From contig JAFXVZ010000027.1 of assembly GCA_017534535.1 (NCBI GenBank), positions 1 through 61,509 on the forward strand: 61,509 nucleotides of DNA. The letters are read 5' to 3'. The stretch is from Bacteroidaceae bacterium. GTDB taxonomy: Bacteria > Bacteroidota > Bacteroidia > Bacteroidales > Bacteroidaceae. A program made the translations under genes and the position numbers. Position 1 is the stretch's first letter. Every line of letters starts with the position of its first letter. This document shows positions 4,332-24,827 of this stretch, in pieces. The notes beneath the pieces were generated by a model. That model did not search any database. It saw nothing but the letters and a program-made list of their open reading frames with translations, and was not told where the DNA came from.

Positions 4332-6797
4332 TCAATAATCTTTCTCTACATAAGTAAAGAAGGTATTGCCGATGGTGAAAGTAACGCCGTGACTCAAAGG
4401 TTCTGAATCGCCTTCCTGTAAAGGATTGTCTCCCAACAGTACGCCTTTCTCCAAAGCCTTGAGGCAAACAACGCCTCGACGTTGGAAGATTTCTGCATGA
4501 ACAGGTGCCACATCACCGGCGATATCCCAAGAAAGCTGGATGGAGCAATCAACACTCTGACCCAATGTTACCACAGCCGACGGATCAGCACGCAGCCATT
4601 TGTAGAGGGCAATCTCCAGCGGCTTGATGGCTCCCCGAACCTGCAGGAAATAATGCTCACTCTTAGGTGCCTCGAAGGCGATGCAGACGGCTATCACTGT
4701 AGATGTAAACAGGAAACTGAGCAATACGAACAGTCGGAAATCAACCAATGTGTCCTGATAGAACAGCATCCAGATATACATGGAAAACAAACCCAAGAAA
4801 CAGGCTATGATAAACCACAACAGACGGATGCGTACACGGGTGTGCCATGTAACACAGTACATAATGACAATTGTCATCAGAATCCAGGGCAAGCAGTCGA
4901 GTAACAAGGAGTTAGTCTTGATATCCATCATAATCGCCAGCATACAGCCTGTTGCAAAGCTCTGATATCCCAAGATTCCAGCTATGACAGCTCGCAGGAA
5001 CATATTGACAATGCGTTTTCTCCACTTGACATGTCGCAGGGAAAGCATCGACAATACAAACGTAGTGAAGAAACTGATGCAAAAGCCAAACGAAGGCTGA
5101 AAATCCAAATGCACGGAATAGTTCAAGAGGAATTGCTCGGCCTCGAGAGTACCCTCCTTAATACCGAAGACGAAGAACACGATTTTGGTGACCAACGGAG
5201 TGGAGTCTAAATGCATGCGCCACATGAAGAACATCCATGCCAACAGTCCGGCTAAGATACCACCCAGGATCCAATCCATATAGAAGGTGGCATTGTTGTG
5301 GTCAAGCAGGTTATGGAAATTATAGTAGTGCGACCCATGTCGGCAATTCCTACCATGCTCCGGGCATTGATAGCCATTTTCATCCCAACAATCTTTATGC
5401 ATCACATGCTCGCATTTGGTAACAACCTCATCACCCACCTCAAAAGGTGCCTTGCAAAGATAGCAGCTTTCAGCAAGCATGATGCCATCTTTACTCATCT
5501 GTGAGCCAGTATAACGCACCACATGACGACGCAGGAAGATGCGATAACGTATCCAAGGAACCACAATCTGCAAGGTAAGCCAGATACCCATTAAAAGACA
5601 GATGGTTACCAAATAGCCACGCATAATTATCTCCGGGAGACTTTTGCCTCCGATGATGATGGGATAAAACACACTACCAAATGAGTAATCAACCTTGCAG
5701 GTTGTAACTTTCTCATTCGTGCGGCGGTTGAAGAAATCAAGGTTAAGCTCCATGTGGTTGCCACGGAACACCTTATTATCAGGCATCATAAGACTGATTT
5801 GGTAATCATCGAAGTCCATCTGGTGGTCTTTCATGAAGTCGTCACGCAGGGCAGGCCAGTCGAAAGAATTCTGTGCCAAGCCTGTTGTCTGACTTACCAA
5901 CAAACGCAACATGCCCAACTCTTGCTGAGAGCCAGAAGCCCCTTGCCGCGCCAACACATTGGCACTTGTGGATGGTGCCGGAACTGACGTAGAAGGCTGT
6001 TCAGCAACCAATGAGTAATATACAGAAAGGTACTGCTGCTGCAGCAATGGTACTATCTCCGCTAATCGTTGCTGCATATCAAAATGACGGGGATCAATCG
6101 GACGATCCTCATTGTAGGTCTTACCGTTTGTAAGCACAATGAGTCCCTTATGCACAGCATCGGAAAACACACTGGTTGAGTCGGTCATCTCCTGCAGTTT
6201 GGTTAACACAGAGCGATAGAGGTAGGTGAACTGGGCATTTTGATGCTTAAAATAGTTGTCGAGGATGTAGTCGGTGGCCTCATAGGTTTCACTCACCTGG
6301 TCGCCCTGCATGAAAGCAACATAGAGCTGATTGGCATTGAGCAGGGTACGCGCCTGCCTAACATCCTCCAGCTGACTATCCACCAGGGATTGGGGCAAGC
6401 TTAAATCTACAAGCATGAGCATCTTTACTGGCGAGGCAGCAATCTGTTCCTTAGCCACATTACGGATTCCCAAAAGGATAGGTGGACGCGAATCATCCAT
6501 CATCACTCCTCTTGACAAGCCTGCCTTTTGGCTGATACCCACTCTAACGGCAGCAGTATCAGAAAGCTCCAAGCCTCCTGTACTTCTACCCAGTTTCATG
6601 GTGATGTCCATATACTTGTAATCATTGGAAGTGTAGAGTTTCCTAACCTCGCACTCCACAGGCTTCTTGCTTACAGTACTGTCAAGTTTGGTAAGCATGG
6701 AATCCACATCGGGGATATCCTGCCCTGTGCAAGAAGACAGCATCAATGCCATCGTGCACAACCCAGTAAATGCTATATGTTTAATCACATTCTTCAT
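4332..6797 (-). CDS. Membrane lipoprotein with VWA-like, RING-H2 and FHA domains
   Basis: The protein has 821 residues. The signal peptide ends in a lipobox (MLSSC, Cys23). A periplasmic VWA-like region (about 105-260) has a degenerate metal site (DLSLP). A transmembrane helix at about 393-413 leads into the cytoplasm. A RING-H2 finger follows at 445-485: C445-x2-C448-x13-C462-x-H464-x2-H467-x2-C470-x7-C478-x2-H481, with C485 nearby. About six more helices span 508-708, and an FHA domain occupies 735-815 (LGQSVDCSIQL...PVHAEIF). RING-H2 fingers recruit E2 enzymes in eukaryotes, and FHA domains bind phosphothreonine and occur in T6SS control. It is the last gene of the locus, 14 bp after its neighbour. 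An E3-like role is inferred. Confidence 0.75.
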   Translation of the reverse strand: MKNVIKHIAFTGLCTMALMLSSCTGQDIPDVDSMLTKLDSTVSKKPVECEVRKLYTSNDYKYMDITMKLGRSTGGLELSDTAAVRVGISQKAGLSRGVMMDDSRPPILLGIRNVAKEQIAASPVKMLMLVDLSLPQSLVDSQLEDVRQARTLLNANQLYVAFMQGDQVSETYEATDYILDNYFKHQNAQFTYLYRSVLTKLQEMTDSTSVFSDAVHKGLIVLTNGKTYNEDRPIDPRHFDMQQRLAEIVPLLQQQYLSVYYSLVAEQPSTSVPAPSTSANVLARQGASGSQQELGMLRLLVSQTTGLAQNSFDWPALRDDFMKDHQMDFDDYQISLMMPDNKVFRGNHMELNLDFFNRRTNEKVTTCKVDYSFGSVFYPIIIGGKSLPEIIMRGYLVTICLLMGIWLTLQIVVPWIRYRIFLRRHVVRYTGSQMSKDGIMLAESCYLCKAPFEVGDEVVTKCEHVMHKDCWDENGYQCPEHGRNCRHGSHYYNFHNLLDHNNATFYMDWILGGILAGLLAWMFFMWRMHLDSTPLVTKIVFFVFGIKEGTLEAEQFLLNYSVHLDFQPSFGFCISFFTTFVLSMLSLRHVKWRKRIVNMFLRAVIAGILGYQSFATGCMLAIMMDIKTNSLLLDCLPWILMTIVIMYCVTWHTRVRIRLLWFIIACFLGLFSMYIWMLFYQDTLVDFRLFVLLSFLFTSTVIAVCIAFEAPKSEHYFLQVRGAIKPLEIALYKWLRADPSAVVTLGQSVDCSIQLSWDIAGDVAPVHAEIFQRRGVVCLKALEKGVLLGDNPLQEGDSEPLSHGVTFTIGNTFFTYVEKDY

Positions 6798-6811
6798 TCT
6801 TCTTTCCTCAT

Positions 6812-7672
6812 TTATATCGTAGGGTAGTTCTGTTGGCCACCCATCGTATTTTTCATCTTCTCAGCCTGAGACCTTAACTTCAGGAACGACTTGATACGAG
6901 TAAGCACCATATTGAAGAACATCAGCACAATGGATACGGCTGCAATATTCATCAGATAGTCCTTGATGCGCTGCAAAAGTGGCATATATGCTGCCTCCTG
7001 TATCTTGCCAGACACCACCTTCAGCTCCAAGTACTTGCTCTCCAGCCTTTCCATACGAGGCCTAAACTGCTCAAAGGCCTCAGCTGTCTGTTTGGCTTCA
7101 TCATAATGTTTCTGCACATCAGCAAACTGCAACTGCTCGGCAGCCTTGACCTTCTCCAGCTCTGCCTGCAGCTTGGCTGATATCGTCAGGCTCATGGCAC
7201 GGCGGTAAAGGCTGCTGTAGATGGAGTCTTGCCCAAACACGAACACCTCTGCCCTATTGAACGCAGCAATCTGGTCGAACTGCTGACGCAATTTAGCTAC
7301 AGACTCATTTACCGTTTGCTGCAGTGTTTGCACATCCGCTACCCTGTTAAGCAGGGAGTCATCCATAGCAATATAGTTTTGCGTCGCCTGCATGAAGGTG
7401 CTCAAACGGGTGCCAATAGACTGCATCGTCGCCTCCATCGAGCTAATGTCATTGGAAACCGACTGCAGCAAGCCTTCCGACATTGTTTCATCGTAGTCGA
7501 TGCTCAGCTGCTGAGTGCTACGCAAGTAAAGCTCATTGAGCTCTTCCTGAAATAACAGCACACGGGTCTCCAGTTCGTAAGTGTTGACATACTGTTCATC
7601 CACCAACGTCTGAGCAAGCAGAGCCAAAGGCCACCACAGCCACATCACCAACAGCCCTATCTTCCATCTCAT
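6812..7672 (-). CDS. Exported coiled-coil protein with C-terminal membrane anchor
   Basis: The protein has 286 residues. A start at 7672 is chosen because it makes an ATGA overlap with the preceding stop and places the signal peptide (MRWKIGLLVMWLWW...LLAQ) at the N-terminus. The body is almost wholly helical with heptad patterns (about 20-225), and one transmembrane helix at about 236-256 leaves a basic cytoplasmic tail of about 30 residues. The topology is a periplasmic rod tethered at its C-terminus. It is not recognisably TssN, TssO, TssP or TssQ. Its place between the two other envelope proteins suggests a part of the trans-envelope assembly. Confidence 0.65.
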   Translation of the reverse strand: MRWKIGLLVMWLWWPLALLAQTLVDEQYVNTYELETRVLLFQEELNELYLRSTQQLSIDYDETMSEGLLQSVSNDISSMEATMQSIGTRLSTFMQATQNYIAMDDSLLNRVADVQTLQQTVNESVAKLRQQFDQIAAFNRAEVFVFGQDSIYSSLYRRAMSLTISAKLQAELEKVKAAEQLQFADVQKHYDEAKQTAEAFEQFRPRMERLESKYLELKVVSGKIQEAAYMPLLQRIKDYLMNIAAVSIVLMFFNMVLTRIKSFLKLRSQAEKMKNTMGGQQNYPTI

Positions 7673-8826
7673 GGCTTTGTGCAATTGGTTTTAAAAAATT
7701 GCTGTGCCTGACGGAACACATCCAAAGCACGGCGTTGTTCATCTGTCTTGATGCCCTGTTGAGACACCAAGGCATCTACCTCCTGAATTACTGCCTCCCC
7801 CTTGGCAATGATGTCGCGACGTTCGATGACATCGTTGGTGAGCATCCAACGAGACACCATATTGTCAAGCTGACGAGCCTTTGTGAGCAACATACGGGCA
7901 TTGACACCATCACCGCCCACGCCAGCAGTACCCGTAAGGCTCACCTCGCACTCCAAGGCTGTGATTTCACTGACGGTGCGGTTATAATCCTCCCAAGCCT
8001 GGTTTACAGCAGGACAATTGCTGGTGCCCTCATGGGTAGGGAATTGCTGCACAAACAGGTTTTTCATCTCCTCAAAAATGGCAAGTAGCTCCTTGTTTGC
8101 CACCAATCCTGTGCCGAAACGGTTCTTGATGGCATCTGCACCCTTCTTGGCACTAGCAGCAGCGTTCTGTGCAGCAGCTACATCTTCATCCATGCCGAAA
8201 CATGGGTCACGGCTGATGAGGACCTGATACTGCATATTGAGATCGTTGCTGAATGTTATCTCGTAACGCTCAGCCTTGCCAACACGAGTAGGCAACTTAT
8301 CCATAAGAAGAATGTCACGCAGGGTCACCTTTACCATATCGCGTTTACCTGTTATGTCAAATTTCTGCTCAATAATATCGTTGACAAGCTTATAGGGTGT
8401 AGGCACAGGTTGCATGCCTTCTACGGTTATCCAACGGTTGAATACGTGGTTATTGCGAGGCAATGGTATCGAACGCTTGAACTTTCTACTGAGTTTGATT
8501 TTCGTGGCTGGGTTCCCCTCTGTGACGTATGGCAATAGCTGAGGACGCAATTTTCCGTTCCAAACGGCTGGTTTATAGCGCACCTGATCCCAAAATACGA
8601 AGAGTGAGCGATAGGAAATAAGGCTTACAGTCAGCGTATTCTCTCCTTCGTTAAAGATAAACTTCACCATCAAGTCTTTATCCCTGGCATCTTGTGACAA
8701 CGTCAAGTGGTCAGTATAAGGTGACTGCCCTCCGACAGTGATGGTTTTCATTGTCTGAGCGGCAACGCCCTGCATCAACAGGCACATACACCCTATCAAC
8801 CCTATTTTTTTTATCATTCCGTTCAT
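7669..8826 (-). CDS. Exported protein of the secretion locus, family not recognised
   Basis: The protein has 385 residues from ATG 8826, 8 bp after the E2 gene stop. An upstream ATG at 8859 would overlap the E2 gene and bury the signal peptide. The signal peptide ends GVAAQ. The first half (to about 220) looks beta-rich. The second half is helical, with an Ala-rich stretch (EDVAAAQNAAASAKKGADAIK) and few cysteines. No lipobox is present, so a soluble periplasmic location is expected. It is coupled to the next gene by ATGA. It is a candidate periplasmic component replacing TssR-type proteins; that is inference from position only. Confidence 0.6.
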   Translation of the reverse strand: MNGMIKKIGLIGCMCLLMQGVAAQTMKTITVGGQSPYTDHLTLSQDARDKDLMVKFIFNEGENTLTVSLISYRSLFVFWDQVRYKPAVWNGKLRPQLLPYVTEGNPATKIKLSRKFKRSIPLPRNNHVFNRWITVEGMQPVPTPYKLVNDIIEQKFDITGKRDMVKVTLRDILLMDKLPTRVGKAERYEITFSNDLNMQYQVLISRDPCFGMDEDVAAAQNAAASAKKGADAIKNRFGTGLVANKELLAIFEEMKNLFVQQFPTHEGTSNCPAVNQAWEDYNRTVSEITALECEVSLTGTAGVGGDGVNARMLLTKARQLDNMVSRWMLTNDVIERRDIIAKGEAVIQEVDALVSQQGIKTDEQRRALDVFRQAQQFFKTNCTKP

Positions 8827-8833
8827 TTTCAAT

Positions 8834-9388
8834 CTATTGATTAAAATAAATCCAACCATTCGGTTCGCCTTGCAAAATTACCCAGGATGCTACTTTCAAA
8901 TCCTCTGGATAAGGAGGCTCTTGTACCGCATGATATATATCGTACCGTAAATAGTCTGCCACTCTCATCACCCCCCACACCAAGTCGGTAAAAGTGTCTG
9001 CCATATTGATGCAGACGCGTCCGGCAAATGCACCGAAATACCGGATATTGGGATGCCACGGATGTGGTATCGGCCTACCCTGTTCATCCTCGGTAAGAAA
9101 CTGGAAGGCTGGAGGAGCATCCACTGACGGATAACCATCAGGCAGTTGGATACTCATCAAATACCCTGTGGCAAACTGCGGAGGATTGCATACACGTGGA
9201 TCATCCAATCGTTCCACATCGCTCACCCCACAGATACTTTTCAGCCGATAGTGCACCAGGTAACTTGTTGGCATCCCCGCTGCATTACGTTTCGTTATCT
9301 CGTAACTGATGTCCTCTCTGCCAGCAAGCCTTTTCTCCATGAGTTGCCACTCGGCAAGAAGCCTTCTGTTTCTACCGTTGACCATCAT
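8834..9388 (-). CDS. E2-like ubiquitin-conjugating enzyme (UBC fold)
   Basis: The protein has 184 residues. An N-terminal helix (RRLLAEWQLMEKRL, 8-21) is followed by four strands, then the UBC signature in order: LPDGYPSVDAPPAFQFL (82-98), HPN (112-114), the catalytic-type Cys126 in GRVCINM, a loop with Trp (TFTDLVWGV), and C-terminal helices. E2 enzymes carry an activated ubiquitin-like protein on this cysteine and pass it to a lysine or a RING E3. The HPN asparagine that helps aminolysis is kept, which argues for an active enzyme. The gene starts inside the stop codon of the ubiquitin-like gene (ATGA). Length and motif order fit well; substrate unknown. Confidence 0.85.
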   Translation of the reverse strand: MMVNGRNRRLLAEWQLMEKRLAGREDISYEITKRNAAGMPTSYLVHYRLKSICGVSDVERLDDPRVCNPPQFATGYLMSIQLPDGYPSVDAPPAFQFLTEDEQGRPIPHPWHPNIRYFGAFAGRVCINMADTFTDLVWGVMRVADYLRYDIYHAVQEPPYPEDLKVASWVILQGEPNGWIYFNQ

Positions 9389-9702
9389 CCTGGAAATGGG
9401 TCAGGTATCAGGAACAACTTATCCCCGTTGTTCACATTATAATCCTTCAACTTCTTGTCGGTCTTGCCAATGCGAGGCCTCAACACTCTCACTTCATTCA
9501 CTACAGGGTCTTCCTTACCAAAGAAATAATCCAAGGGAGCACCCGTCTGGTCAATGGAAGGAAAGTCGAATATCAATCTTCCATCGCTGCCCACAGCATG
9601 CCGCAAGTTCGTCATCAGCTGACTCAGTGGTGCATCAGGGTTCACTACCCTAAACCTCACCGTCTTGTTCTTATACGTTATATCCAAAAAGTAATCTTCC
9701 AT
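9385..9702 (-). CDS. Ubiquitin-like (beta-grasp) protein with C-terminal glycine
   Basis: The protein has 105 residues. It opens with a two-strand hairpin (YFLDITYKNKTVRFRVV), a helix (SQLMTNLRHAV), a middle insertion, and a final element KLKDYNVNNGDKLFLI that matches ubiquitin's TLSDYNIQKESTLHLV. From DYN to the end both proteins have 19 residues, so the last residue (PFPG) falls on ubiquitin Gly76. A mature C-terminus needs no processing peptidase, and none was found. YukD-type beta-grasp proteins of type VII systems are the alternative family, but the adjacent E2 and nearby E1 favour a conjugated modifier. It lies between tssF and the E2 gene. Confidence 0.8.
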   Translation of the reverse strand: MEDYFLDITYKNKTVRFRVVNPDAPLSQLMTNLRHAVGSDGRLIFDFPSIDQTGAPLDYFFGKEDPVVNEVRVLRPRIGKTDKKLKDYNVNNGDKLFLIPDPFPG

Positions 9703-9749
9703 CTCTAATTATATAATAATAAATAATGAAACGACATAGTTTTCATTGT

Positions 9750-11459
9750 TCATTGTTCAACTTTTATCAACACTGTTATAGGATAGACATTCGCACTGCG
9801 AACCTCCATCATCTTCTGTATCAATATCTCTACCTGCTTTATCTTATCACTAAAGCTACGAATCACGAACGAGTTGTTGGCCAGTGTAATCTCCACCACA
9901 ATCTCATATCCACAAGACCTCAACTCCGGCTTCTGTCGGCGACTCACTGTGATGCTCCTCACCATATCGCGAGTGATACCATAATGAGTGAGCAGTTCAT
10001 TATAACAGAAAAACTTAATGTCAGCTGGTGTCACCACACGATCTTGGGTAGCCAAGTAATAACGTGAGAGGCTTGCTTCAGCACTCTGTTCCCTGATTTC
10101 ATTCAGTCCCATCACCGGCTCGGCAATCTGACGCGTCTTGGTTGTATCAACTCCTGAAGGAGCCACAAACTTGCTGGAGCTATTGAGCAAGGTATTGATA
10201 ACAGCTCCGCTGGTGGTGAGGTATGAAACATCCACACTATAGGCCTCATGTGTCGAAGCTTTGATGGGACGAAGCATGAGATACACACCAGGCGTCACCT
10301 TCAGTCTATCTTTACCTATCACGTCTATCAGTGACACTAAAATATTCTGCAAAGACAACACGGTCTTATCATTGAAACCTTCAGGCAGGTTGCGATAAGC
10401 AATAAAGTCTGAACGATATCTCATCACCAACGAATTAAGCAATCCCATCAATCGACCTTGGTCGAAACGGTCGGCAGCTACACGGCGCACATCAATTAAC
10501 GCATCAGCAAAAATCTGTTCCTCAGCAGGACGTACTGCGTGCAAGAACTGTTGTCCCGTCTGTATTTCATCTGAGTTGGCACCCGTCACTCTCACCACGG
10601 GAGAAGCCTTCGAGAGTGTAGCTGTCTGCTTACGAGCATTCACCAATATTGTGGTGTTTAACAAGAAACTTTCCCTGTCTAACACAAATTGGTCATTGAT
10701 ACCAGAAAACTCCAATATCAAGTCAACAGATTCCATCTCCATCTGCATCATCGGCTTGCTCGCATCGTTTTTCTTTATATAAAACATCCTCACATTCTGA
10801 CGGGCAAACAGGTCCAAACACGTTGCCGAAGCATTGTAAGTCTGAGTACGATTATATAAGATAGAATCCAGACCAAAACATTCGTTTAGAGGGAGTTCGC
10901 TAAAGTCCCATGGTTTAACAAGTCGAAGTGTCTGTCCACCGACAGTGATCTTCAAATCCTGAAACCATGCGTTTCTGATAGTGAAGCACAGTCCTGACAA
11001 GTCGGATATTGCCTGCTTAAAGGTCAGTGAAACCTTCCAACGTCGGCCATCTATTCTTGATATCGAACGCACTCGCGCATTCAACAAGCGTGTCTCCAAC
11101 AATGGGATAAACGTATAGGCAGTTCCCTCCAGGGTGAACTCACTGTTCTCGTTAAGCACTATTTCTTGAACGCCATCTTCTAATGCCAGCTGAACTGCAG
11201 CAGTTGCTGGTACAGCATGTCCCACCTCATACGGCACCAACAAATTGGCGAAATCCTGCAGCACCTCCTGCTTGATCTCTTCCAAATCGCTGGCAGACTC
11301 ATTAGCCTGATATGCCAAAGCGGTGATCAGCAGTCGCATGACAGGGTCGTTCTCCAACCCCTCCAAAGCGTCGTTTCTATCGCTCTGTCTCCAAACATTC
11401 ACTGCTTCACGCAACAGTTCCTCTGCCCTCTGCCTGGTTTCAAACACAGTCTGTTTCAT
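9750..11459 (-). CDS. tssF: TssF-like baseplate wedge protein
   Basis: The protein has 569 residues. The start matches the Bacteroidetes TssF layout: an N-terminal helix, then ENDPVMRLLITALAYQ and LLVPYEVGHAVPA (about 37-90), which correspond to the DP.v..L and P....P..a elements of TssF/VasA. Beta-rich middle domains follow. In the baseplate TssF binds TssG and TssE and connects the sheath to the spike hub. The gene begins 1 bp after the TssE gene and is followed, 47 bp on, by the ubiquitin-like gene. It is the most likely cytoplasmic neighbour of the modifier. Confidence 0.75.
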   Translation of the reverse strand: MKQTVFETRQRAEELLREAVNVWRQSDRNDALEGLENDPVMRLLITALAYQANESASDLEEIKQEVLQDFANLLVPYEVGHAVPATAAVQLALEDGVQEIVLNENSEFTLEGTAYTFIPLLETRLLNARVRSISRIDGRRWKVSLTFKQAISDLSGLCFTIRNAWFQDLKITVGGQTLRLVKPWDFSELPLNECFGLDSILYNRTQTYNASATCLDLFARQNVRMFYIKKNDASKPMMQMEMESVDLILEFSGINDQFVLDRESFLLNTTILVNARKQTATLSKASPVVRVTGANSDEIQTGQQFLHAVRPAEEQIFADALIDVRRVAADRFDQGRLMGLLNSLVMRYRSDFIAYRNLPEGFNDKTVLSLQNILVSLIDVIGKDRLKVTPGVYLMLRPIKASTHEAYSVDVSYLTTSGAVINTLLNSSSKFVAPSGVDTTKTRQIAEPVMGLNEIREQSAEASLSRYYLATQDRVVTPADIKFFCYNELLTHYGITRDMVRSITVSRRQKPELRSCGYEIVVEITLANNSFVIRSFSDKIKQVEILIQKMMEVRSANVYPITVLIKVEQ

Positions 11460-11460
11460 C

Positions 11461-11916
11461 CTAACTCCAAATCTTCAGTATATTCGTATATTCATATTCT
11501 TTATTCGTAGAAGCAATCACTCCTTTTATAGTGACATACACTTGACGCTCCTCACGCATATAAGTCATACTGGCGGTAACATCACGCAGCCGTTTCTCGT
11601 TGGCAATAACGGCTTCCTTTAAGTCTGCCGCATAAGTATTCATATTCTTCGACGAACCCGTGATCTTCTTGTCATACAATCCCTGAATGCCATATACGCC
11701 ACCAGAATCGTTGCTGTCGAACACCACACCTTCATGCTCATCGAAGATTTCAAAGCGCACGTTATTGAACACAAAGCCGAACATAGGATCGGATGCCGAA
11801 CTGAACAATCGAGTGGTCAACAACAACTCTATCGAAGCATCAATGCTTCGTTTCAGGCTTCGCTCCTTGGCCAGTCCCGAACTCGTCACTCTCAATGGTA
11901 ATGCAATGTTCGTCAT
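11461..11916 (-). CDS. tssE: TssE-like (gp25) baseplate protein
   Basis: The protein has 151 residues, the length expected of gp25-like TssE. The first third has the helix that is followed by a short hydrophobic stretch (IDASIELLLTTRLFSSASDPMFG), a Bacteroidetes counterpart of the gp25 entry R..L..LL.T..GER. Beta strands and a helix (LKEAVIANEKRLRDV) follow. TssE starts sheath polymerisation on the baseplate. It sits in the order tssG, tssK, tssE, tssF, which supports the call more than any single motif. Confidence 0.7.
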   Translation of the reverse strand: MTNIALPLRVTSSGLAKERSLKRSIDASIELLLTTRLFSSASDPMFGFVFNNVRFEIFDEHEGVVFDSNDSGGVYGIQGLYDKKITGSSKNMNTYAADLKEAVIANEKRLRDVTASMTYMREERQVYVTIKGVIASTNKEYEYTNILKIWS

Positions 11917-11931
11917 TTTTTTATCATATTA

Positions 11932-13143
11932 TTATATCAGTGGCACGAACGGTTCTTCTTCCGGTTCTGGCACATACAATGCGTTATACAGGTTGTCGAA
12001 CAATTCGAAGTACATTCTCTCAAACAGGCTTTGACTGAGTTCATTACTCATCACAGCCACATGCTCATTCAAGTCATTGTCAAGCTGTATGCCTTTCTCC
12101 TGCAACAAACCAGTCAAATGCTTCTCCAACTCCATCCTAAGCGTTTCATTGATATAAGAGGTTATCTCCTCCGACTTTTGCTGCACCTCTGTCTTCAATT
12201 CTTCCTTCATGTCGGCCAACAACTTCTCTATCAACTCAGGATGCAAACGACTATAGAGTTCTGCTTTAGCTTGTGCTAACAATGCCTCATAGTCAATGGT
12301 ATTGTCTTCCAGCACAACAGCATCAAGAACTGTAGTTGTACCTGAAAAGAAATCATCCAGCCACTGCAACCACAATTGTATATCCACATAGCTCACCAGT
12401 GGCACTTCCACGGGGTTCTCCTGGTGACGCGACAGTATATAGTAGTCGATAGCCTGTGCTATTTCCTGCATCAACGTCACAAAACCTTCTACGCTACCGC
12501 GCATATCATAGCCTTTAAGAAGGAACAGGTAGTGTAACAGGGCACGTTTTCCCTCTCCTTCTTCCAGGTTAGGATGCTGTGCCAACCGCTGTACATGATC
12601 AGTAAATTTATTAGCATATGCTTTAAAACGATCATCAGTCTCAAGCACCAAACATGGGGGAATGAAGTCGGTATCTATGCTCAACAAACCATCTTTTGCT
12701 TTGAAACGCACCAAAGGTAGCATATCACCCTGCTCAATCTCCTCCTGAGTATGGATGCTGTAAACATAGCGGGGAGTAATATAAGGTATTCCTTCGCTCT
12801 CAAACTCACGCTGTTCGTCGGTAATACCTACAGTCAAGTAATAACGGTCGCCAAACAACATGGGTATATCTACTGACAAGTCCTCATCAGCATCTACCAA
12901 TTTACCAGAAGGGAGCAAAGCCATACACCTGAAGTTATCAGCTTCAAAATGATTCTTAACAAATACTCCTTTACAGACAAACGGCATATCAGGCAGTCGG
13001 CCCATGCGTACGGCTCCTATAGCTGCTCGCAAGGCAATGCGATGCTTTATATCACCTACAACAGCTACACCCCGCATAGCTTTTGCAGTGACCTCCATGC
13101 CTGGTTTCCAATTTACTCTTGCATTTATATCCATAATTATCAA
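11932..13143 (-). CDS. tssK: TssK-like baseplate/membrane adaptor
   Basis: The protein has 403 residues; a start at 13134 (MDINARV) is equally possible. The opening VNWKPGMEVT corresponds to the TssK entry V.W..GM, and IEQGDMLPLVRF...DFIPPCLVLE (about 137-170) to its shoulder motif. The C-terminal 130 residues are helical and acidic. TssK links the wedge (TssF/G) to the membrane complex, and its C-terminal head normally docks on TssL/TssM. Those are absent here, so the helical tail must contact something else, possibly one of the membrane proteins encoded downstream. Confidence 0.75.
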   Translation of the reverse strand: MIIMDINARVNWKPGMEVTAKAMRGVAVVGDIKHRIALRAAIGAVRMGRLPDMPFVCKGVFVKNHFEADNFRCMALLPSGKLVDADEDLSVDIPMLFGDRYYLTVGITDEQREFESEGIPYITPRYVYSIHTQEEIEQGDMLPLVRFKAKDGLLSIDTDFIPPCLVLETDDRFKAYANKFTDHVQRLAQHPNLEEGEGKRALLHYLFLLKGYDMRGSVEGFVTLMQEIAQAIDYYILSRHQENPVEVPLVSYVDIQLWLQWLDDFFSGTTTVLDAVVLEDNTIDYEALLAQAKAELYSRLHPELIEKLLADMKEELKTEVQQKSEEITSYINETLRMELEKHLTGLLQEKGIQLDNDLNEHVAVMSNELSQSLFERMYFELFDNLYNALYVPEPEEEPFVPLI

Positions 13144-13178
13144 TTGTCAATCGTCAATTGAGCTTAGCTCAATGTCAA
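13144..13178. repeat. Dispersed ATTGACAATTGACGATT-type repeat with small palindrome
   Basis: The spacer between the TssG-like and TssK genes carries copies of CAATTGACGATT, also seen at about 31738-31752, and an ATTGAGC-TTA-GCTCAAT palindrome. Similar AT-rich 7- to 8-mers recur in intergenic DNA of this window. No gene is present. Confidence 0.5.
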
Positions 13179-13967
13179 TCAGTATTTTGTTTCAGTATTA
13201 TAGTCCAGCACCAATCGTTTATCAATTTGTTGCGACGCCCCATATTCTTTCACCAAAATTCGGCACATCACCTCCATAGGCATGAGCCATTCTGTAATAA
13301 AGTTTCGTAGGGGTTCTAGCGACTCATTCTGTTGTTTATACCCCTCAGCGGTAAGTCCTGGAATGAGCACATCATAACGAACCATAGGCAACCACCTGAC
13401 AGTATTGTCGGTGTGGCTATACCGCCCTATCTCCATCTTTACCTCGCAGTGCAACACTGTTTCCAAGAGTTGACGTACAAAACCAAAGTCACCCCTCTTG
13501 TTGCTCACAAAGGGGAGCATTACCGCTACCTCTTTTACCAATGGGTCTTGTTCCTTACTCATATCGAACCCGAAATAAGTAAGCAACACATAATCCAATT
13601 TCTCTTCCAAAAGCTCACTTACCTGCCGTTCCACAAAGAGACTTTGTTTGAACCAATAGGTGTCAATCGGCATAAAAGCCTCCCTAAGCAAGTGGATGCG
13701 CTGTTCAAGTTCTTTAAACTTAGCTCGCATATCTTCACCCTTCAGTTCATCCTGTCGGTTGTACAGACCTTCCGGCAACAAGTTTAAGAATCCGTCACGG
13801 CTCATTTCCACTTCTTTTGCATCCTCATCAAGGAACAAAATGTCTTGGGTATAGTTCCGATAGAAAGAGCCCATATTACGAGCCTTCCATTGTTGCTCCA
13901 ATTCCGGATAGAGGTGGTTCAACAGCACCTCTGCCCTGATATGCGGTATGTTATTTTCTATATTCAT
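13179..13967 (-). CDS. Probable TssG-like baseplate protein
   Basis: The protein has 262 residues. The N-terminal 90 residues contain EMSRDGFLNLLPEGLY, a DG.....PEGL element seen in Bacteroidetes baseplate wedge proteins annotated as TssG, followed by long helices (about 75-140). The C-terminus is beta-rich. It starts within the stop codon of the E1-like gene (ATGA) and is followed by tssK, tssE and tssF. Position and element fit TssG, the partner of TssF. Overall similarity to proteobacterial TssG cannot be seen by eye, so the call is provisional. Confidence 0.5.
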   Translation of the reverse strand: MNIENNIPHIRAEVLLNHLYPELEQQWKARNMGSFYRNYTQDILFLDEDAKEVEMSRDGFLNLLPEGLYNRQDELKGEDMRAKFKELEQRIHLLREAFMPIDTYWFKQSLFVERQVSELLEEKLDYVLLTYFGFDMSKEQDPLVKEVAVMLPFVSNKRGDFGFVRQLLETVLHCEVKMEIGRYSHTDNTVRWLPMVRYDVLIPGLTAEGYKQQNESLEPLRNFITEWLMPMEVMCRILVKEYGASQQIDKRLVLDYNTETKY

Positions 13968-15121
13968 TTCATCTCAACATAACGGTCTTTCCCATCAACA
14001 ATAACACAGAGAACATCCTGTTCAGGTATCCCTAACGCAGCTAATGTCAATCCTTGATAAGGGAAGCCACTATCTATGCGTCTATACTCATGTTGGTACA
14101 GCCCACTCAAAGGAATACCAGACAATCGTTCATGCTGCTCTACAAAACTCTCAACTGCTCTGCCTGGAAGCATTACCTCCCATTGTTGGTCTGTGGCACG
14201 CTCTGAAACAAAGTCCACAAAACAGTCATTTCTCAGGCAGATTTCCACATCTTGAGCTTTCAGCTCCTTATAAAGCACTTGCAACGACTCGCCTACAGAC
14301 ATCTCTCGATGCACCTCGGTATGCTCCACTGGTTCCCAACATTCATGCTCTACACAATCATCATCCCAAGCCTGGAAATCCACCAACCGTGTTGTCAAAT
14401 GTTCTCCCTCATAGTAGAACATCTTACCACATAGGGACTCTAAACTGCCATCGTTCAAGGCATCGCGCTGCAGCAATTTAAGTGCCTCTTGTACCTGCAC
14501 AGCTCCAATTATTGAAGCAATCAGTGAGGTAGTAGGCGCAGTGCCAGCCTCTTCATGTCTTCGGATGAAACCCATGCATGGCGCTCTCCGTTTCAAATCT
14601 TTCAATCCTTCAGGTCCCAAGTTACATGCATAGCAGTTTACACCAGGCACGAAAACTCGAACAGTACCTTCCAGTTCATTGATGCCACCATCTACCCATG
14701 GTACCCCTGCCCTCATGCAGAGACGATTGATGCAGAAACGTGCCCATTGGCTATCTACACAGCCAATTACCACGTCCATCCGCCTGATCAACCCCAGACC
14801 TACATCATAAGCGACATCGCCCCTGATGGTCTTTATATCTAAATTTGCATTCAACTCTAAAAGCCTTTCCTCAATCACGTCAGTCTTGTATCGTCCTTCT
14901 AATGCATCAGTTTTTCTGAACAGCACTGAACGTGTCAAATTGCCAATCTCCACGTGATCAAAATCCACAGCCACAATATGCTGAACGCCCATTAATGTCA
15001 GGTTCTTTAACACCTCATTACCCAACGCGCCACAGCCGACAACCATGACATTAACCCCTCTATCTACTGACCATCGAGCTTCGCCCCTATTTCGTTGTGA
15101 CTCGTTATAGTTCACATTCAT
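13964..15121 (-). CDS. E1/ThiF-like ubiquitin-activating enzyme
   Basis: The protein has 385 residues. The ATP-binding loop is VVGCGALG (27-34). The adenylation core follows (VDFDHVEIGNLTRSVLF, about 52-68; the nucleotide-binding Asp-rich region; VDGGINELEG). One Zn pair is C163-x2-C166. The crossover loop holds Cys182 in RRAPCMGF just before TAPTTS (194-199), where E1 enzymes place their thioester cysteine. The last 140 residues are a separate domain that could bind the E2 or the baseplate. E1-like enzymes adenylate the C-terminal glycine of a ubiquitin-like protein. It is coupled to the TssG-like gene by ATGA and lies 52 bp after the RRF-like gene. Confidence 0.85.
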   Translation of the reverse strand: MNVNYNESQRNRGEARWSVDRGVNVMVVGCGALGNEVLKNLTLMGVQHIVAVDFDHVEIGNLTRSVLFRKTDALEGRYKTDVIEERLLELNANLDIKTIRGDVAYDVGLGLIRRMDVVIGCVDSQWARFCINRLCMRAGVPWVDGGINELEGTVRVFVPGVNCYACNLGPEGLKDLKRRAPCMGFIRRHEEAGTAPTTSLIASIIGAVQVQEALKLLQRDALNDGSLESLCGKMFYYEGEHLTTRLVDFQAWDDDCVEHECWEPVEHTEVHREMSVGESLQVLYKELKAQDVEICLRNDCFVDFVSERATDQQWEVMLPGRAVESFVEQHERLSGIPLSGLYQHEYRRIDSGFPYQGLTLAALGIPEQDVLCVIVDGKDRYVEMK

Positions 15122-15173: not shown

Positions 15174-15878
15174 TCAATTATCAAAGTTCAGTGTTTTGGC
15201 AGCTTTCTCGTCCATCGCTTCATGCTTATCCTGTTGCTCTTTATCTTTTTCCTCTTGTTTTTTCTGCCAACGCTGATAAGCCTCCTCTATCTCCTTTTCT
15301 TTGTTCTCCCGATAGGTCTTAATAATGTCTTTATGTTGATTATACGCCTGCTCCAAGTTTTCTTTCGCCTCATCAACATCATTAGGGCTCTCACCCTCCA
15401 TCTTAGAAAGCAGTCTAACGGTATAATCGCTCTTTGTTTTATCCAACTGCATGCCACATTCATCATACAAAGAGGAAACGCCATCCATCAACAAGTCACG
15501 ACGATTTTTGTCAACCTCTGGCATGGTAATAATAATGTGTTTTTCCTCTTTATCATCTATATGCAATCTGTCCTCATCAGCAGATTTGATCACTTCTTGT
15601 TTGAATTCAGGATGGGCCTGAACGAAAGCCTTACAGATTGGGAAAAGAAATTCTTCTTCTTTAGGTACAACCTCAAACTGAAAATCATTTCTCTGCATCA
15701 CAAAAGCCGCTTTTTCAATGTCCAGCCTTTCTCCTTCCCTGTCTATCACTTCCAACGATAGTAATGAGGCAGGCTCTGCCTTGACACACATGTTCATATA
15801 TCTGTACTGCAGCAGCACAGCATAACCACCCATTTTATTTTTCATCTCACCTAACAGCGTTCCAACAGCCCTTCTCAT
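15174..15878 (-). CDS. Divergent ribosome-recycling-factor-like protein
   Basis: The protein has 234 residues. The pattern of RRF can be followed end to end: an N-terminal helix (LGEMKNKMGGY), EPASLLSLEVIDREGERL against RRF's ASP.LLDGI.VDYYG, FEVVPKEEEFLFPICKAF against the L.I.PWD..LL..IEKAI strand-helix, MPEVDKNRRDLL against PPLTEERRKEL, and a final helix ending KEKEI as in RRF. RRF is about 185 residues; a Lys/Glu-rich tail of about 40 is added. Conserved ribosome-contacting arginines of helix 3 (RNIRRD) are replaced (LDKTKSDY). It is therefore a paralogue with a changed job, not the housekeeping frr. It starts 6 bp after the exported PEGA-like gene ends. Confidence 0.65.
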   Translation of the reverse strand: MRRAVGTLLGEMKNKMGGYAVLLQYRYMNMCVKAEPASLLSLEVIDREGERLDIEKAAFVMQRNDFQFEVVPKEEEFLFPICKAFVQAHPEFKQEVIKSADEDRLHIDDKEEKHIIITMPEVDKNRRDLLMDGVSSLYDECGMQLDKTKSDYTVRLLSKMEGESPNDVDEAKENLEQAYNQHKDIIKTYRENKEKEIEEAYQRWQKKQEEKDKEQQDKHEAMDEKAAKTLNFDN

Positions 15879-15883
15879 AACCT

Positions 15884-17254
15884 TTATCTTCTTTTATGTT
15901 TTTTCATTTTCAATTCCACATCAGTAAGCGTGTTGCCAATCACCTTTACCTGTTTCTGCACATCTCGGAAGCCAGGTTTGCTTAACCTCACGCTATAAGT
16001 CTTACCAGCTAAGAGCTTCCCAGTCATACTAGGAGTACGCCCACTTGGCTCACCATTTATATATATATCAGCATCCACCTCATTGCTATGAATGCTCAAG
16101 TAACCATAATCAGCCATGGTAGCAGACAAATCCAATTGATGGTGCACCTCATCTTCAACCCATAGGTATTGAGGGGCTGACTCTATGCCATCTGCCCTTG
16201 TTGTCACCGCATAGAACCCCATCGCCAACAGACCTTCCCATCGACCCGTTCCCATTAACTCTCGATTCACCCATATCTCCGTAGAATCGTTGGGAGCTGT
16301 TATAGTCACCAAAGCCTTCTTATCCTTGGCATCAATTATGGTAGAATCTACTTGTTGCTCCACCACTGATCTATCTTCAATAACCCTTGCCGTTTCTCCG
16401 TCTGCCAATGCATAATCCACCGTCTTCCTCCTCCAGCGCGGATAAAACTCATCGGTAGTCAATATCAAAGTTTTCTTTTCCGCTTTTGTCATTATTACAT
16501 CAGACTCATACCAACACACATCATCCTTCATCACTGTCAGTCGATGTAAACCCTCAGCTAGTCGTCCACTGGTAGCTTCAGTATATCCGATAGTCTGACC
16601 ATCAATCAATATCTCGCAATCCTCCTGTGGAGTCTTCACCATCAGGTAAGAATAAGTAGGCTGCAATGACACTTTTACTGTGAGTTTCTCACTATCGGTC
16701 ACTTCCAACACACCATCTTCCTGTTCATGAAACGGAGACTCCACCCTATATGGATGCTTTCCTAACGCCAATTCCAATTGCACCCTACCATTGCGCGTGT
16801 TTATTTGTGTACTATCCACATACACTATCGCATTCTCTGGTATTATTTCAAACACCACCCACTGACTTGCCAACTTGAAATCCTTTTCAAGGCTCTCTGT
16901 CAGCAGCTGTGCCTCATACCTTTTCTTTTTCTTCAGTCCCTTGCTATCAGGCACCTTCCAATACAATTGTCCATATTCGTCATGTTTAATCAACAAGAAC
17001 TTGGTCTTGTGCGGAGCCTTAAGTGTAATACCCTTGTCTCCTTCTTCAGCTTCCAATTCCGTCACACCATCTGCCCAAAAAGAGAACCCTTTTTCCGTAG
17101 TCACCAAATCGAGCGTGGCCAGTCGTTTTTCTATCACCACATGACGCATATTCAAAGGTCCTTTCTTCACCTTGTGGAAGTCAGTCACCTTCATCTGTTG
17201 TGCCTGGACAGGCAATAGCATGAGTGACAATAGTATGGCAACAAGGTATCTCAT
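15884..17254 (-). CDS. Exported PEGA-repeat protein
   Basis: The protein has 456 residues from ATG 17254, which overlaps the PAAR gene stop (ATGA) and gives a clean signal peptide (MRYLVAILLSLMLLPVQAQ). Upstream ATGs lie inside the PAAR gene. After an N-terminal beta region come several PEGA-like beta-sandwich repeats with the I.(I/V)(D/N)G..(I/S)G pattern (CEILIDGQTIG, EIWVNRELMG, DIYINGEPSGRTPS). The basic C-terminus is KMKKHKRR. PEGA domains act in surface or periplasmic adhesion to sugars or proteins. It is a candidate periplasmic part of the envelope channel; its basic tail could face the membrane. Confidence 0.7.
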   Translation of the reverse strand: MRYLVAILLSLMLLPVQAQQMKVTDFHKVKKGPLNMRHVVIEKRLATLDLVTTEKGFSFWADGVTELEAEEGDKGITLKAPHKTKFLLIKHDEYGQLYWKVPDSKGLKKKKRYEAQLLTESLEKDFKLASQWVVFEIIPENAIVYVDSTQINTRNGRVQLELALGKHPYRVESPFHEQEDGVLEVTDSEKLTVKVSLQPTYSYLMVKTPQEDCEILIDGQTIGYTEATSGRLAEGLHRLTVMKDDVCWYESDVIMTKAEKKTLILTTDEFYPRWRRKTVDYALADGETARVIEDRSVVEQQVDSTIIDAKDKKALVTITAPNDSTEIWVNRELMGTGRWEGLLAMGFYAVTTRADGIESAPQYLWVEDEVHHQLDLSATMADYGYLSIHSNEVDADIYINGEPSGRTPSMTGKLLAGKTYSVRLSKPGFRDVQKQVKVIGNTLTDVELKMKKHKRR

Positions 17255-17637
17255 TTCCCTTCTGCCATCATGTTGCCGGGATTGGTAATGGATATCTGTC
17301 CACCCCACATACACATGCATTTACCGTTGTCCAACAAAGCAGGCTGATTCATCACTAGCACTTTGCTAGGAGGCATCCACGGAGCCGTGATAGCAGGTAT
17401 GCATGGCATGGGGGTTAACACACCCATCGCTGCAGAGGTGGCTGCCGCCACCTGCGGATTAGCCATCGACTGGCACATGCCAAAGGGCAATATGTTTGTC
17501 ATAGGCACCATATCCATCACTGTTGCCATCAACATATTCTGCGCTTTTGGTCGCAAGGGTACTGTAACCATCAAAGCCGATGGTGCCATACCGAAGCTGC
17601 ATTGCAGCATTGCGCCCATACATACAAACTTTCCCAT
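17251..17637 (-). CDS. PAAR-like (DUF4280) spike-tip protein
   Basis: The protein has 128 residues, about the usual DUF4280 size, with the family's N-terminal GAMLQCSFG, Met/Ala/Pro-rich middle (MANPQVAAATSAAMG), and late Cys/Gly region (NGKCMCMWGGQISI). DUF4280 proteins are PAAR-like caps that sharpen the VgrG spike. The gene follows the VgrG and spike-associated genes, as expected for a tip, and its stop overlaps the start of the PEGA gene. Confidence 0.85.
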   Translation of the reverse strand: MGKFVCMGAMLQCSFGMAPSALMVTVPLRPKAQNMLMATVMDMVPMTNILPFGMCQSMANPQVAAATSAAMGVLTPMPCIPAITAPWMPPSKVLVMNQPALLDNGKCMCMWGGQISITNPGNMMAEGK

Positions 17638-17693: not shown

Positions 17694-19664
17694 TTATTTT
17701 GCTTCTGGAGCATCATCTTCTTTCAATTTCGCACTTAGGCGAGCTGTTGACGGTGCACCTGGAATAGGAATACCGTCGCTTATATTTGAACTCTTAAATG
17801 AAGTCTTAGCCTCCAAATTGTCAGCCGTAAGCTTCGGAGCCTTCACGTCTGCCTTGAACTCAGCCTTAGCATTGACAGTAGTATCACCATAAAGCTGCGT
17901 CTTCGAGCCAGAAACCGACAGATTACCACCATCAAGCTGCACAACAGCCTTGCCTTCACCTTGCTGCACTTCCGCAGTAGATGAGCCATAAAGGCCTGTC
18001 TTTTCTGCCGATATCTGTACCTGCTTAGCGGTATTCTTCTTGGCAGTACGGCCAATGAACATCTTCTCAGCCGCTATTACCATATTACCGCCTGCAGCCA
18101 AATTCTTGTCTTTACCCTTGTCATCGGTATCCATTGACTTCACGAATACATTCTTGCCGTTCAGTACAATCTGACCCAAAGCCTTGCCGCTCTTATCCAC
18201 AGCAGCTACGCTTGTCTTTTCAACCATAATGTTGAACGAGCCTGTAGCATTCTTGTCTTTATCGACAGATGACATAGAAATATCTTTTGATAGTACATCA
18301 AACGAGCCTATTACATTACCATCTTTATCACCAGAGCCCATGGTCACCTTCTCAACTCCTACAGAAAGCATGCCCGTATTCTTTTTCTCCTTTACATCTT
18401 GAGAAAAAATAGTAGTATTCTCGCTACGGACTAAAAAAGAACTGTCTTTTGTCTGCCCTTTTACTTCCTTTTTCCCATCTTTTATAGTTTCATCAACCGC
18501 ATTAAATGAAACCGTCTTTGATAACACTTGGAAGGAACCCACTTTCGGCAAGTCTCCGTTGCCTTTATCGTCAAGTTTCGGGTTAGTAGTATCTATCAAT
18601 ACATTCTGGGTAGCTATGCGCACGCCACTATTATCAATCAATGAACTATCAGCTTTACGGGTGTTAATGGTTAAGTGGCCTGTTTGCATATTGATACTTG
18701 CTTCTTGGTTGTCGCGTATGTTGCCGTCGCCATCCACCGATTCCATATCAATGCGTTCACCACGCAAAGTAAGAGACGTATTGATCGCCTCTTTCTTAAA
18801 GTTGCTCTTGGCAGCATTCAGTATCTTCTGTTCTGCTTGCAAAGCTGTAATACGGCGATTGGTCTCTGCCAACTGTGAAAGAGCTTTGATGCAGCCATCC
18901 AGCGCATTGTGCAAGGCTGGAACCATCCCTTCAAACTTATCCTGTGCATCATCCAAATCAAGCACATTCGTACGTGTCAAAACCTCACTGCTATTTAAAA
19001 GATCTGCAGCATTTAACATCAATTCCATCTCTGTAGTGAGTTGTGTCACCGCAGCTATGCGACTGGTTGAATCTTTGGTGAGGCTAGTCTTATCTTTATT
19101 TAAATTCTTCAGTTGCTCATCAATAGCTTTCCCTCTCATCTCCACCGACTTAGAAGCATCTATCTCTAATCTTTCATCGGCATGGATACGTACGCCTGAT
19201 GCACCTGCAGCTACAGGTAACTGGGAAAAATAACCACTAGAATCATTGCTCTGTATCACAATATTCCTGGCCTGATTGATGATGGAGGAACCAGATAATA
19301 CTGCTTCCTGCACACCATCTGCACCTGGATCAACAGCTTTTTGAGAAATATGGGTGGCACGAGTGCTCACCGAGCCATTATCGCCCGAACCTTCTATGCT
19401 AACAGCACCACCTCGTATAATCACTGTACCAGTATCACCAAACAACATACCGTTGGCATCCACATTACCAATAACGACCTCAGGTGCAGAGAGGATGATA
19501 CGCTTGTCATTGTGAATAAACAAGTCCTCTGAAAGGCGGTTGTAAATATCGTCCTTCAGTTGCTGTATCTCCGCTTTCTGTTTGCGGATTTCAGCTAAAT
19601 CTTTTGTCACACTGGCTTGCAACTTTGTTAATGCTGCTGTCCATTCTGTCAATAGCGTTGCCAT
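17694..19664 (-). CDS. Beta-solenoid and coiled-coil spike-associated protein
   Basis: The protein has 656 residues. An N-terminal coiled coil (about 8-45) is followed by strand-rich repeats. A second coiled coil lies at about 175-290. Many imperfect 20-25-residue strands rich in Asp, Gly, Ser and Val follow at about 300-610 (GSFDVLSKDISMSSVD, GSFNIMVEKTSVAAVD, GQIVLNGKNVFVKS). A disordered Pro/Lys tail ends it. The repeats resemble the beta-helix at the end of VgrG and phage tail needles. Its start codon overlaps the VgrG stop by one base (TAATG), so the two are made in fixed ratio. It is likely a needle extension or cargo adaptor; no enzyme motif was seen. Confidence 0.6.
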   Translation of the reverse strand: MATLLTEWTAALTKLQASVTKDLAEIRKQKAEIQQLKDDIYNRLSEDLFIHNDKRIILSAPEVVIGNVDANGMLFGDTGTVIIRGGAVSIEGSGDNGSVSTRATHISQKAVDPGADGVQEAVLSGSSIINQARNIVIQSNDSSGYFSQLPVAAGASGVRIHADERLEIDASKSVEMRGKAIDEQLKNLNKDKTSLTKDSTSRIAAVTQLTTEMELMLNAADLLNSSEVLTRTNVLDLDDAQDKFEGMVPALHNALDGCIKALSQLAETNRRITALQAEQKILNAAKSNFKKEAINTSLTLRGERIDMESVDGDGNIRDNQEASINMQTGHLTINTRKADSSLIDNSGVRIATQNVLIDTTNPKLDDKGNGDLPKVGSFQVLSKTVSFNAVDETIKDGKKEVKGQTKDSSFLVRSENTTIFSQDVKEKKNTGMLSVGVEKVTMGSGDKDGNVIGSFDVLSKDISMSSVDKDKNATGSFNIMVEKTSVAAVDKSGKALGQIVLNGKNVFVKSMDTDDKGKDKNLAAGGNMVIAAEKMFIGRTAKKNTAKQVQISAEKTGLYGSSTAEVQQGEGKAVVQLDGGNLSVSGSKTQLYGDTTVNAKAEFKADVKAPKLTADNLEAKTSFKSSNISDGIPIPGAPSTARLSAKLKEDDAPEAK

Positions 19665-24262: not shown

Positions 24263-24283
24263 TTTACTGTCTTCATAAAGTTA

Positions 24284-24349
24284 TTTATAAAAAATAGGTA
24301 TGCCAATTAGCTCAGCAGTAAAAGACTGAGCCAATTGGCGCCACCTATT
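24284..24349 (-). terminator. Internal terminator/attenuator between second and third TssD genes
   Basis: Read on the minus strand, an imperfect 13-bp stem (24338-24326 with 24315-24303, CCAATTGGCTCAG) is flanked by an outer 7-bp stem (AATAGGT/ACCTATT) and runs into ATTTTTTATAA. It stands after tssC, tssD1 and tssD2, whose products are needed in hundreds of copies, and before genes for single-copy parts. Partial read-through would set the ratio. Confidence 0.7.
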
Positions 24350-24359
24350 GCCATTAAGA

Positions 24360-24758: not shown

Positions 24759-24827
24759 ATGTAATTTCCTTTCTTTTCTTTAAATAATTAATGTTTTATT
24801 TCTCAAATCTAAAAACTCTCAAATAGA

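Follow-up and report, generated by a model that had tools for sequence, protein, structure and literature searches.

Why should an operon for a contractile injection machine carry a complete set of ubiquitin-type conjugation genes? The question is raised by contig JAFXVZ010000027.1 of a Bacteroidaceae bacterium (assembly GCA_017534535.1), positions 1 to 61,509 of the forward strand; this whole stretch of 61,509 nucleotides is called the window below. A preliminary description, made from the sequence alone, had placed a modifier, an E1, an E2 and a RING protein inside a contractile-injection locus. All four are encoded there, amid type VI secretion system (T6SS) genes:

8834..9388, minus strand: E2 (UBC family) with W111-H112-P113-N114 and Cys126 (profile, conserved residues)
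9385..9702, minus strand: ubiquitin-like modifier (Ubl) of 105 aa ending in ...PDPFPG, the last residue being the conserved Gly (conservation, model)
13964..15121, minus strand: E1 (ThiF/UBA family) with GxGxxG at 29-34, K79, D123 and catalytic Cys182 (Pfam, profile)
4332..6797, minus strand: probable E3/anchor, with the arrangement VWA-transmembrane (TM)-RING-6TM-FHA (Pfam, conservation, model, predicted topology)

We hypothesize, with a probability of about 0.5, that these genes form a dedicated pathway of ubiquitin-like conjugation, integral to the contractile injection machine, and that it modifies that machine at its membrane anchor.

Single-sequence Pfam matches are strong for the E1 (9.9e-46) and for the FHA domain (8.8e-6). 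The E1 profile is nearest to UBA7 (6e-32), UBA6, Uba1 and SAE2, and MoeB and MccB follow closely (3e-25); judging by motif, its CYxC at 163-166 together with C256/H259 presumably forms a zinc site. The E2 profile aligns with UBE2K through the HPN motif, the Cys and further, which assigns the UBC fold by profile. The ubiquitin fold proposed for the modifier is reproduced by its AlphaFold model, and the model of the RING protein contains a VWA domain fold (both calls by VIA-align of the Foldseek ranking). The membrane RING-H2/FHA protein of the preliminary description stands and can be resolved further. It comprises a signal peptide with conserved Cys23, a predicted periplasmic VWA domain (~113-330), TM1 (395-413), a RING-H2 (445-485, predicted cytoplasmic), six further TM segments and a predicted cytoplasmic FHA domain (743-810). 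The RING was identified by its motif and by sub-threshold Pfam matches.

The four genes had also been held to be no chance neighbours, and a search for orthologous loci that might lack them found them present. E2 relatives occur in six of the 201 genomes sampled from the window's family, its own included, and the other five all carry the Ubl, E2, E1 and RING protein genes beside Tss genes (5/5). A scan of a named genome collection with the E2 alignment, employing a WHPNI pattern, returned 144 relatives, the best 80 of which were examined as loci; 76 of the 80 match the pattern alone. Their titles name Bacteroidales, Bacteroidia, Bacteroidaceae, Prevotellaceae and Paludibacteraceae, and the genera Prevotella, Xylanibacter, Bacteroides, Mediterranea, Parabacteroides, Alistipes and Millionella. 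Two loci, L093 and L095, were treated as the same contigs as G006:C7 and G034:C57. Phylum-wide prevalence is low (E2 in 3/395 genomes, TssC in 25/395).

Among the 80 loci, Ubl and RING protein are each found in 79, TssK and TssG in 76, TssF in 74, the protein u396 in 74, TssE and E1 in 73, and the coiled-coil protein cc290 in 69. The complete four-gene cascade is present in 72 loci, and 79 have one or more of the TssE/F/G/K genes; the sole locus without any of the latter (L094) lies on a contig that begins at the E2. Five of the seven loci without an E1 stop at a contig end ahead of its expected place. True absence of the E1 in the genomes of L084 and L087 was ruled out, as it was found elsewhere in both (4.6e-120 and 2.8e-122). 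Accidental insertion of the cascade is ruled out by the conserved synteny of orthologous loci.

The catalytic positions are nearly invariant. E2 C126 is kept in 81/81 sequences (window plus 80 loci), E1 C182, K79, D123, C163, C166, C256 and H259 in 73 of 74 rows (a gap in the fragment L079), and Gly is the final residue of the Ubl, with no extension, in 79/79 loci. Seven of the eight RING ligands are kept in 80/80 and the last one in 78/80. HPN is likewise found in 81/81 E2 proteins, a figure set by the WHPNI scan pattern; it was dropped as independent evidence because that pattern itself contained HPN. A pattern-free check found HPN and Cys in all six E2 loci of the window's family, and E2 proteins of a more distant family, collected by whole-protein search (n = 12), keep HPN in 12/12 and Cys in 11/12. 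In the E1 of that family Cys182 is kept in 8/8 checked, and C256/H259 are lost in two of them. Mean identity over the 66 loci that hold all nine compared genes is 0.77 for Ubl, 0.59 for E2, 0.57 for E1, 0.51 for TssE, 0.48 for TssK, 0.47 for TssF, 0.44 for TssG, 0.41 for u396 and 0.38 for the RING protein. The Ubl is thus the slowest-evolving of the nine, as expected of a ubiquitin. We regard the cascade as likely to be active.

The loci differ in gene order and in the presence of a JAMM protein. Type A, to which the window belongs (74/80 loci, by u396), usually runs E1-TssG-TssK-TssE-TssF-Ubl-E2-u396-cc290-RING. Type B (L010, L012, L015, L085 and L088-L092, the last five near-identical) runs PAAR-Ubl-E2-...-RING-E1-TssG-... 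where the sequence covers it. A protein with a JAMM motif lies between E2 and RING in eight of the nine type B loci, L085 lacking it; the motif was found in none of the 74 type A loci as examined, nor in the window in six frames. Matches of the Prok-JAB model to the JAMM proteins of type B reach no better than 3e-4 to 2.5e-3; one such protein matches below the cut-off at 0.0039. Two of nine type A genomes tested (those behind L019 and L064) have a Prok-JAB match above the cut-off.

In a different family of the same class, 12 of 150 genomes contain an E2, and a module ordered E1-Ubl-E2-JAMM-VWA/TM/FHA recurs there. Several of these modules are associated with extracellular contractile injection systems (eCIS; loci L148-L155, L172-L177 and L179-L180). 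In G264 the module adjoins PAAR and eCIS_core cargo (PF13699, 5.2e-17), ~20 kb from a full eCIS tail, and G358 is arranged alike (its open reading frames (ORFs) for cargo and PAAR identified by eye). An eCIS tail is present in G732 and G690, and PAAR with cargo in G675 and G703; G706 has TssB/TssC-like genes and, by eye, a TssK-like ORF. G624 was excluded from the tail count, its contig ending soon after the E2. The E1-Ubl-E2 module adjoins Hsp70-like genes at L185-L187 and L183 (G737, G677 and G624; by eye), and several of the eCIS loci carry an nSTAND NTPase upstream of the E1.

The JAMM proteins of type B and of the distant family are homologous (99.8%, profile comparison). Descent of cc290 from a JAMM protein stripped of its JAMM domain was rejected, the profile comparison giving only 0.8-2.7%. 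Trees were built for E1 (38 sequences) and E2 (41) from a thinned set of type A and rooted at the midpoint; in them the distant family is monophyletic (support 1.0), type A is monophyletic (0.75 and 0.87) and type B is paraphyletic; the JAMM gene was therefore probably lost towards type A. The Ubl extends two to four residues past the conserved Gly (GK, KE, ID, FNA, KKMK, CFKR) in 6 of 16 JAMM-bearing loci whose Ubl end is readable and in none of 75 JAMM-less ones (73 type A, the window and L085). All six extended proteins come from the distant family, and the sample is related; in G675 and G737 the examined stretch stops short of the Ubl end. With residues beyond it, the Gly must be freed before use, and an extension found only together with JAMM is the direction that a working C-terminal conjugation system would predict.

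The machine itself has the T6SS core set TssB, TssC, Hcp, VgrG, PAAR, TssE, F, G, K and H at one locus. The minus strand from ~30.1 to 4.3 kb reads TssH, TssB-like, AraC-like, TssC, three Hcp, VgrG, u656, PAAR-like and PEGA, followed by RRF-like, E1, TssG-like, TssK, TssE, TssF-like, Ubl, E2, u396, cc290 and the large membrane protein. Besides the cascade, it comprises:

27884..30115, minus strand: TssH/ClpV-like AAA+ unfoldase, 743 aa (Pfam, profile)
27368..27835, minus strand: TssB-like sheath partner (position and conservation)
25268..26635, minus strand: TssC sheath (PF17541, 5.7e-101)
23843..25220, minus strand: three Hcp/TssD genes, 23843-24262, 24360-24758 and 24828-25220 (Pfam)
19664..23824, minus strand: VgrG/TssI, 1386 aa (Pfam, profile)
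17694..19664, minus strand: u656, between VgrG and PAAR-like (39/80 loci)
17251..17637, minus strand: PAAR-like DUF4280 (Pfam, 2.5e-33)
15884..17320, minus strand: PEGA-domain protein (Pfam)
15174..15878, minus strand: protein resembling ribosome recycling factor (RRF-like; 44/80 loci)
13179..13967, minus strand: TssG-like, with a 4-bp overlap with E1 (position and conservation; no Pfam match)
11932..13143, minus strand: TssK (3.6e-4 and 1.1e-6, both under curated cut-offs)
11461..11916, minus strand: TssE (gp25; Pfam, 2.8e-8)
9750..11459, minus strand: TssF-like baseplate protein (weak Pfam match, 0.039; position, conservation)
7669..8859, minus strand: u396, signal-like N-terminus (74/80 loci)
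6812..7684, minus strand: cc290, coiled coil with N-terminal signal and C-terminal TM (69/80 loci)

The likeness of the RRF-like protein to ribosome recycling factor is weak (1.7e-6, just under the cut-off). VgrG is long, with its OB domain at about residue 714, and little of its N-terminal part could be assigned. TssH aligns end to end with ClpA and in two pieces with ClpB/ClpV, which suggests that the window's protein lacks the middle domain; a TssH-looking ORF in the canonical locus L123 measures 827 aa (by eye). An AraC-type helix-turn-helix gene (26780-27322) separates the TssB-like and TssC genes in the window, and the two are adjacent in G034 and in three genomes of type B (G113, G033 and G122). 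An SPFH/Band 7 protein (3289-4242) follows the RING gene; among the 80 loci as examined, only L016 and L017 have a homologue.

The preliminary description had assigned the tail genes to T6SS-iii, and here the core genes agree and the assignment to an ordinary T6SS-iii does not. TssC (PF17541) occurs in 16 of the 201 family genomes, in three score classes. TssN (PF17555), the core of the canonical Bacteroidota membrane complex, accompanies it in the top class (5/5 genomes) but not in the other two (0/11), where six genomes have the E2; the genome of the window is 89% complete. The machine of the window is therefore T6SS-iii-like rather than an ordinary T6SS-iii. It shares with T6SS-iii GA1-GA3 the TssC (PF17541), TssD (PF17642), VgrG, PAAR-like, TssE, TssK and TssH genes, TssB-, TssF- and TssG-like genes and Bacteroidales hosts. 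Unlike the canonical genomes and loci tested, which show none of them, it carries E1, E2, Ubl and RING genes. The E2 profile, which does find G000, G264 and G358 as a positive control, gave no match in the ten TssC-positive genomes without an E2, and the cognate E1 was not found there either (best 1.4e-25, the generic ThiF level, vs ~1e-120).

A further arrangement, type C (G196, G013 and G168; loci L114-L115, L116-L117 and L118), is a TssN-less T6SS locus without any ubiquitin-type gene, and its TssC falls in the score class of type B. In G196 the locus encodes an M23 peptidase, a Zn-ribbon/FHA protein, a peptidoglycan-binding protein, a kinase-FHA protein and a kinase; G013 and G168 have ORFs resembling these in size and order. 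The contigs of G041 and G098, TssN-less and E2-less, are too short to type. TssNQOPR is described in passages of PMC10781749 as the membrane complex of the Bacteroidota T6SS, with TssN, likened to EccD, having a ubiquitin-like domain and TssR D2 likened to 5bv8. The same 5bv8 is among the structural matches of the VWA model of our RING protein. Descent of the RING protein from TssR or TssN was rejected, profile comparison giving only 0.3% and 0.5%, and the VWA fold common to the RING protein and TssR is an analogy only. Conceivably, though the odds fall a little short of even, Bacteroidota possess a whole class of contractile injection systems (CIS), their tails T6SS-like in some and eCIS-like in others, that is run by a dedicated ubiquitin-type cascade whose transmembrane RING E3 is also the anchor that replaces TssNQOPR.

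We infer how the chemistry would run, on what substrate and with what outcome. The E1 would adenylate the C-terminal Gly of the Ubl, take the modifier on Cys182 and hand it on to the E2 at Cys126. With its VWA domain outside and its RING and FHA domains on the cytoplasmic side, the VWA-TM-RING-6TM-FHA protein would lie in the inner membrane, recruit the charged E2 and act as E3. As this E3 would sit at the place of tail docking, the likeliest acceptors would be machine parts that face the cytoplasm there, such as TssK/F/G/E of the baseplate, components of the tail or the anchor, and the FHA domain may choose Thr-phosphorylated partners. Attachment of the Ubl could then be an assembly or firing switch, where other T6SSs use the Thr-phosphorylation pathway PpkA-Fha. 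That pathway resembles the present system in its FHA domain at the membrane (ours has a weak match to the TagH FHA) and in the kinase/FHA genes of a type C locus, and differs in using phosphorylation instead of a protein tag. In type B and the eCIS relatives, a membrane JAMM protein would mature and/or remove the Ubl; in the type A lineage, where JAMM was probably lost, the Ubl would be encoded ready-made. We favour a switch at the anchor because of the inner-membrane E3, the loss of TssN and the kinase/FHA set of type C. The chance that the injection machine is the target of modification is somewhat better than even.

Several observations weigh against this proposal. The single-sequence Pfam matches of E2 (0.002), Ubl (0.0099) and RING (8.6e-4) lie under the cut-off, and conservation, profiles and structure were therefore used as tests; the last ligand pair of the RING has C-x6-C spacing. 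No sequence homology links the RING protein to TssR or TssN, and most of the zinc ligands are missing from its eCIS homologue (by eye). No Prok-JAB match was found in the window's genome, which is 89% complete, at E 0.01. No CIS gene was recognised in the 3.5-40 kb examined in 5 of 12 distant-family genomes (G597, G624, G737, G677 and G618), so the distant-family module may not be CIS-bound. The E2 of G618, a divergent relative in a 520-aa frame (L189:546-2108) that retains HPN, has Gln at the catalytic Cys column of the alignment. The distance matrices of cascade and Tss proteins correlate at 0.74-0.87, against 0.83-0.95 among Tss proteins, a comparison that lacks an unlinked-gene control. 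The loci share ancestry, and their counts are therefore not independent events.

Other explanations have to be set beside a switch at the anchor. The strongest rival, in our view unlikely, is that the Ubl tags effectors, PAAR, VgrG or Hcp for loading or export, the cascade selecting what is fired rather than when. It would account for the Ubl gene following a PAAR-like gene in type B and for the module adjoining PAAR and eCIS_core cargo in eCIS loci; in the window and type A, however, Ubl and E2 follow TssF and E1 precedes TssG. A membrane E3 with a periplasmic VWA domain also suits an anchor better than a loader, and effectors are usually far less conserved than the cascade genes are here. 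Ubiquitin-type marks often guide unfoldases, and the Ubl might instead mark contracted or misassembled tails for TssH or another protease. TssH is indeed present in the window's locus and in four of five family relatives, the contig of the fifth ending before its place. Yet the type C loci have a TssH of the same size without any ubiquitin-type gene, and no ubiquitin-binding domain is among the TssH matches listed (best 25 of 46 and 47), which makes turnover improbable.

Bacterial Ubl pathways of known role reportedly act in defence (PMC10097602). Bil is one such pathway (PMC11354881), and the E1 of the window matches the PADLOC E1-E2 models (1.3e-15); a Bil-kind anti-phage system might merely share the T6SS locus and modify incoming phage tails. 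We consider this quite improbable: Tss genes are interleaved with the cascade in 79/80 loci, the E2, Ubl and RING protein have no match in PADLOC (2023 library), the E2 motif is HPN rather than the CEHH of BilB, and no relative was found in the viral contigs searched. A viral origin was rejected on the last finding. Least credible of all is a scaffold without conjugation, in which the Ubl would serve structurally, as a beta-grasp component comparable to the TssN/EccD cytoplasmic domain, with E1 and E2 as docking partners. The ATP-site residues and Cys182 of the E1, Cys126 of the E2 and the free Gly at the Ubl C-terminus are conserved throughout, and JAMM proteins accompany the module elsewhere.

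The combination also sets the system apart from its nearest known counterparts. Like Bil (BilABCD), it has Ubl, E1 and E2 at one locus and, in type B, a JAMM protein. Unlike Bil, the window has no JAMM in the locus, has a RING protein, is embedded in a CIS operon and encodes a one-domain Ubl, BilA being a two-domain one. Its HPN-type E2 contrasts with the CEHH motif given for BilB-type E2 in PMC11354881. The E1 profile meets BubCD of type II Bil (Bub) at 1.2e-10 over 112 positions, far below the eukaryotic E1 scores. With the eukaryotic ubiquitin/SUMO cascade (UBE2K, UBA7/UBA6/SAE2, RING-H2 E3) it shares the HPN and Cys of the E2, the adenylation residues and Cys of the E1, the RING-H2 ligands, the C-terminal Gly and the ubiquitin fold. 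It differs in a short single-ThiF E1 nearly as close to MoeB/MccB, a VWA/7-TM/FHA E3 and a single terminal Gly. E2 and E1 are separate genes, unlike the CBASS-type E1-E2 fusion (PADLOC E1-E2).

The eCIS relatives are akin in their E1-Ubl-E2-JAMM-VWA/TM/FHA module (Pfam and profile homology) and differ in their eCIS tail (sheath, CIS_tube, Pvc16, tape measure) or eCIS_core cargo and in a U-box-like region in place of the RING. By eye, this stretch (DPITQDAFEEGD...) at L154:4347-6725 and L155:9325-11673 has few zinc ligands. The Bacteroides fragilis ubiquitin BfUbb (structure 8hm2) is said, by the title of PMC5705921, to be a secreted antagonist, with no apparent E1, E2 or T6SS context.

That no such system had been described agrees with the literature as covered: titles, abstract starts and some passages yielded no published account of a cascade-CIS association, and the 2011 survey of prokaryotic RING proteins or the 2024 Bil papers may mention it. 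The passages included parts of a 2006 survey of prokaryotic ubiquitin systems (PMC1779556) and of a paper on eCIS (PMC8213781); the words "ubiquitin" and "ThiF" are absent from the main text of the GA1-3 papers PMC4714493 and PMC8102008.

If the cascade modifies the machine, bacterial ubiquitin-like signalling would reach beyond phage defence into the regulation of a secretion weapon, with ubiquitin-like marking controlling a secretion nanomachine from inside the attacker. A T6SS-like class without the known membrane complex would gain a candidate anchor. The loci offer a natural series, from the kinases and FHA of type C through the cascade with JAMM of type B to the cascade without JAMM of type A. 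Cultured commensals, among them Xylanibacter ruminicola D31d (L019) and Mediterranea massiliensis (L051), provide the E1-E2-RING-Ubl set in compact form, accompanied by a JAMM protein or not, which opens substrate choice to direct testing. Gut and rumen bacteria may regulate one of their weapons by a switch regarded as characteristic of animals and plants.

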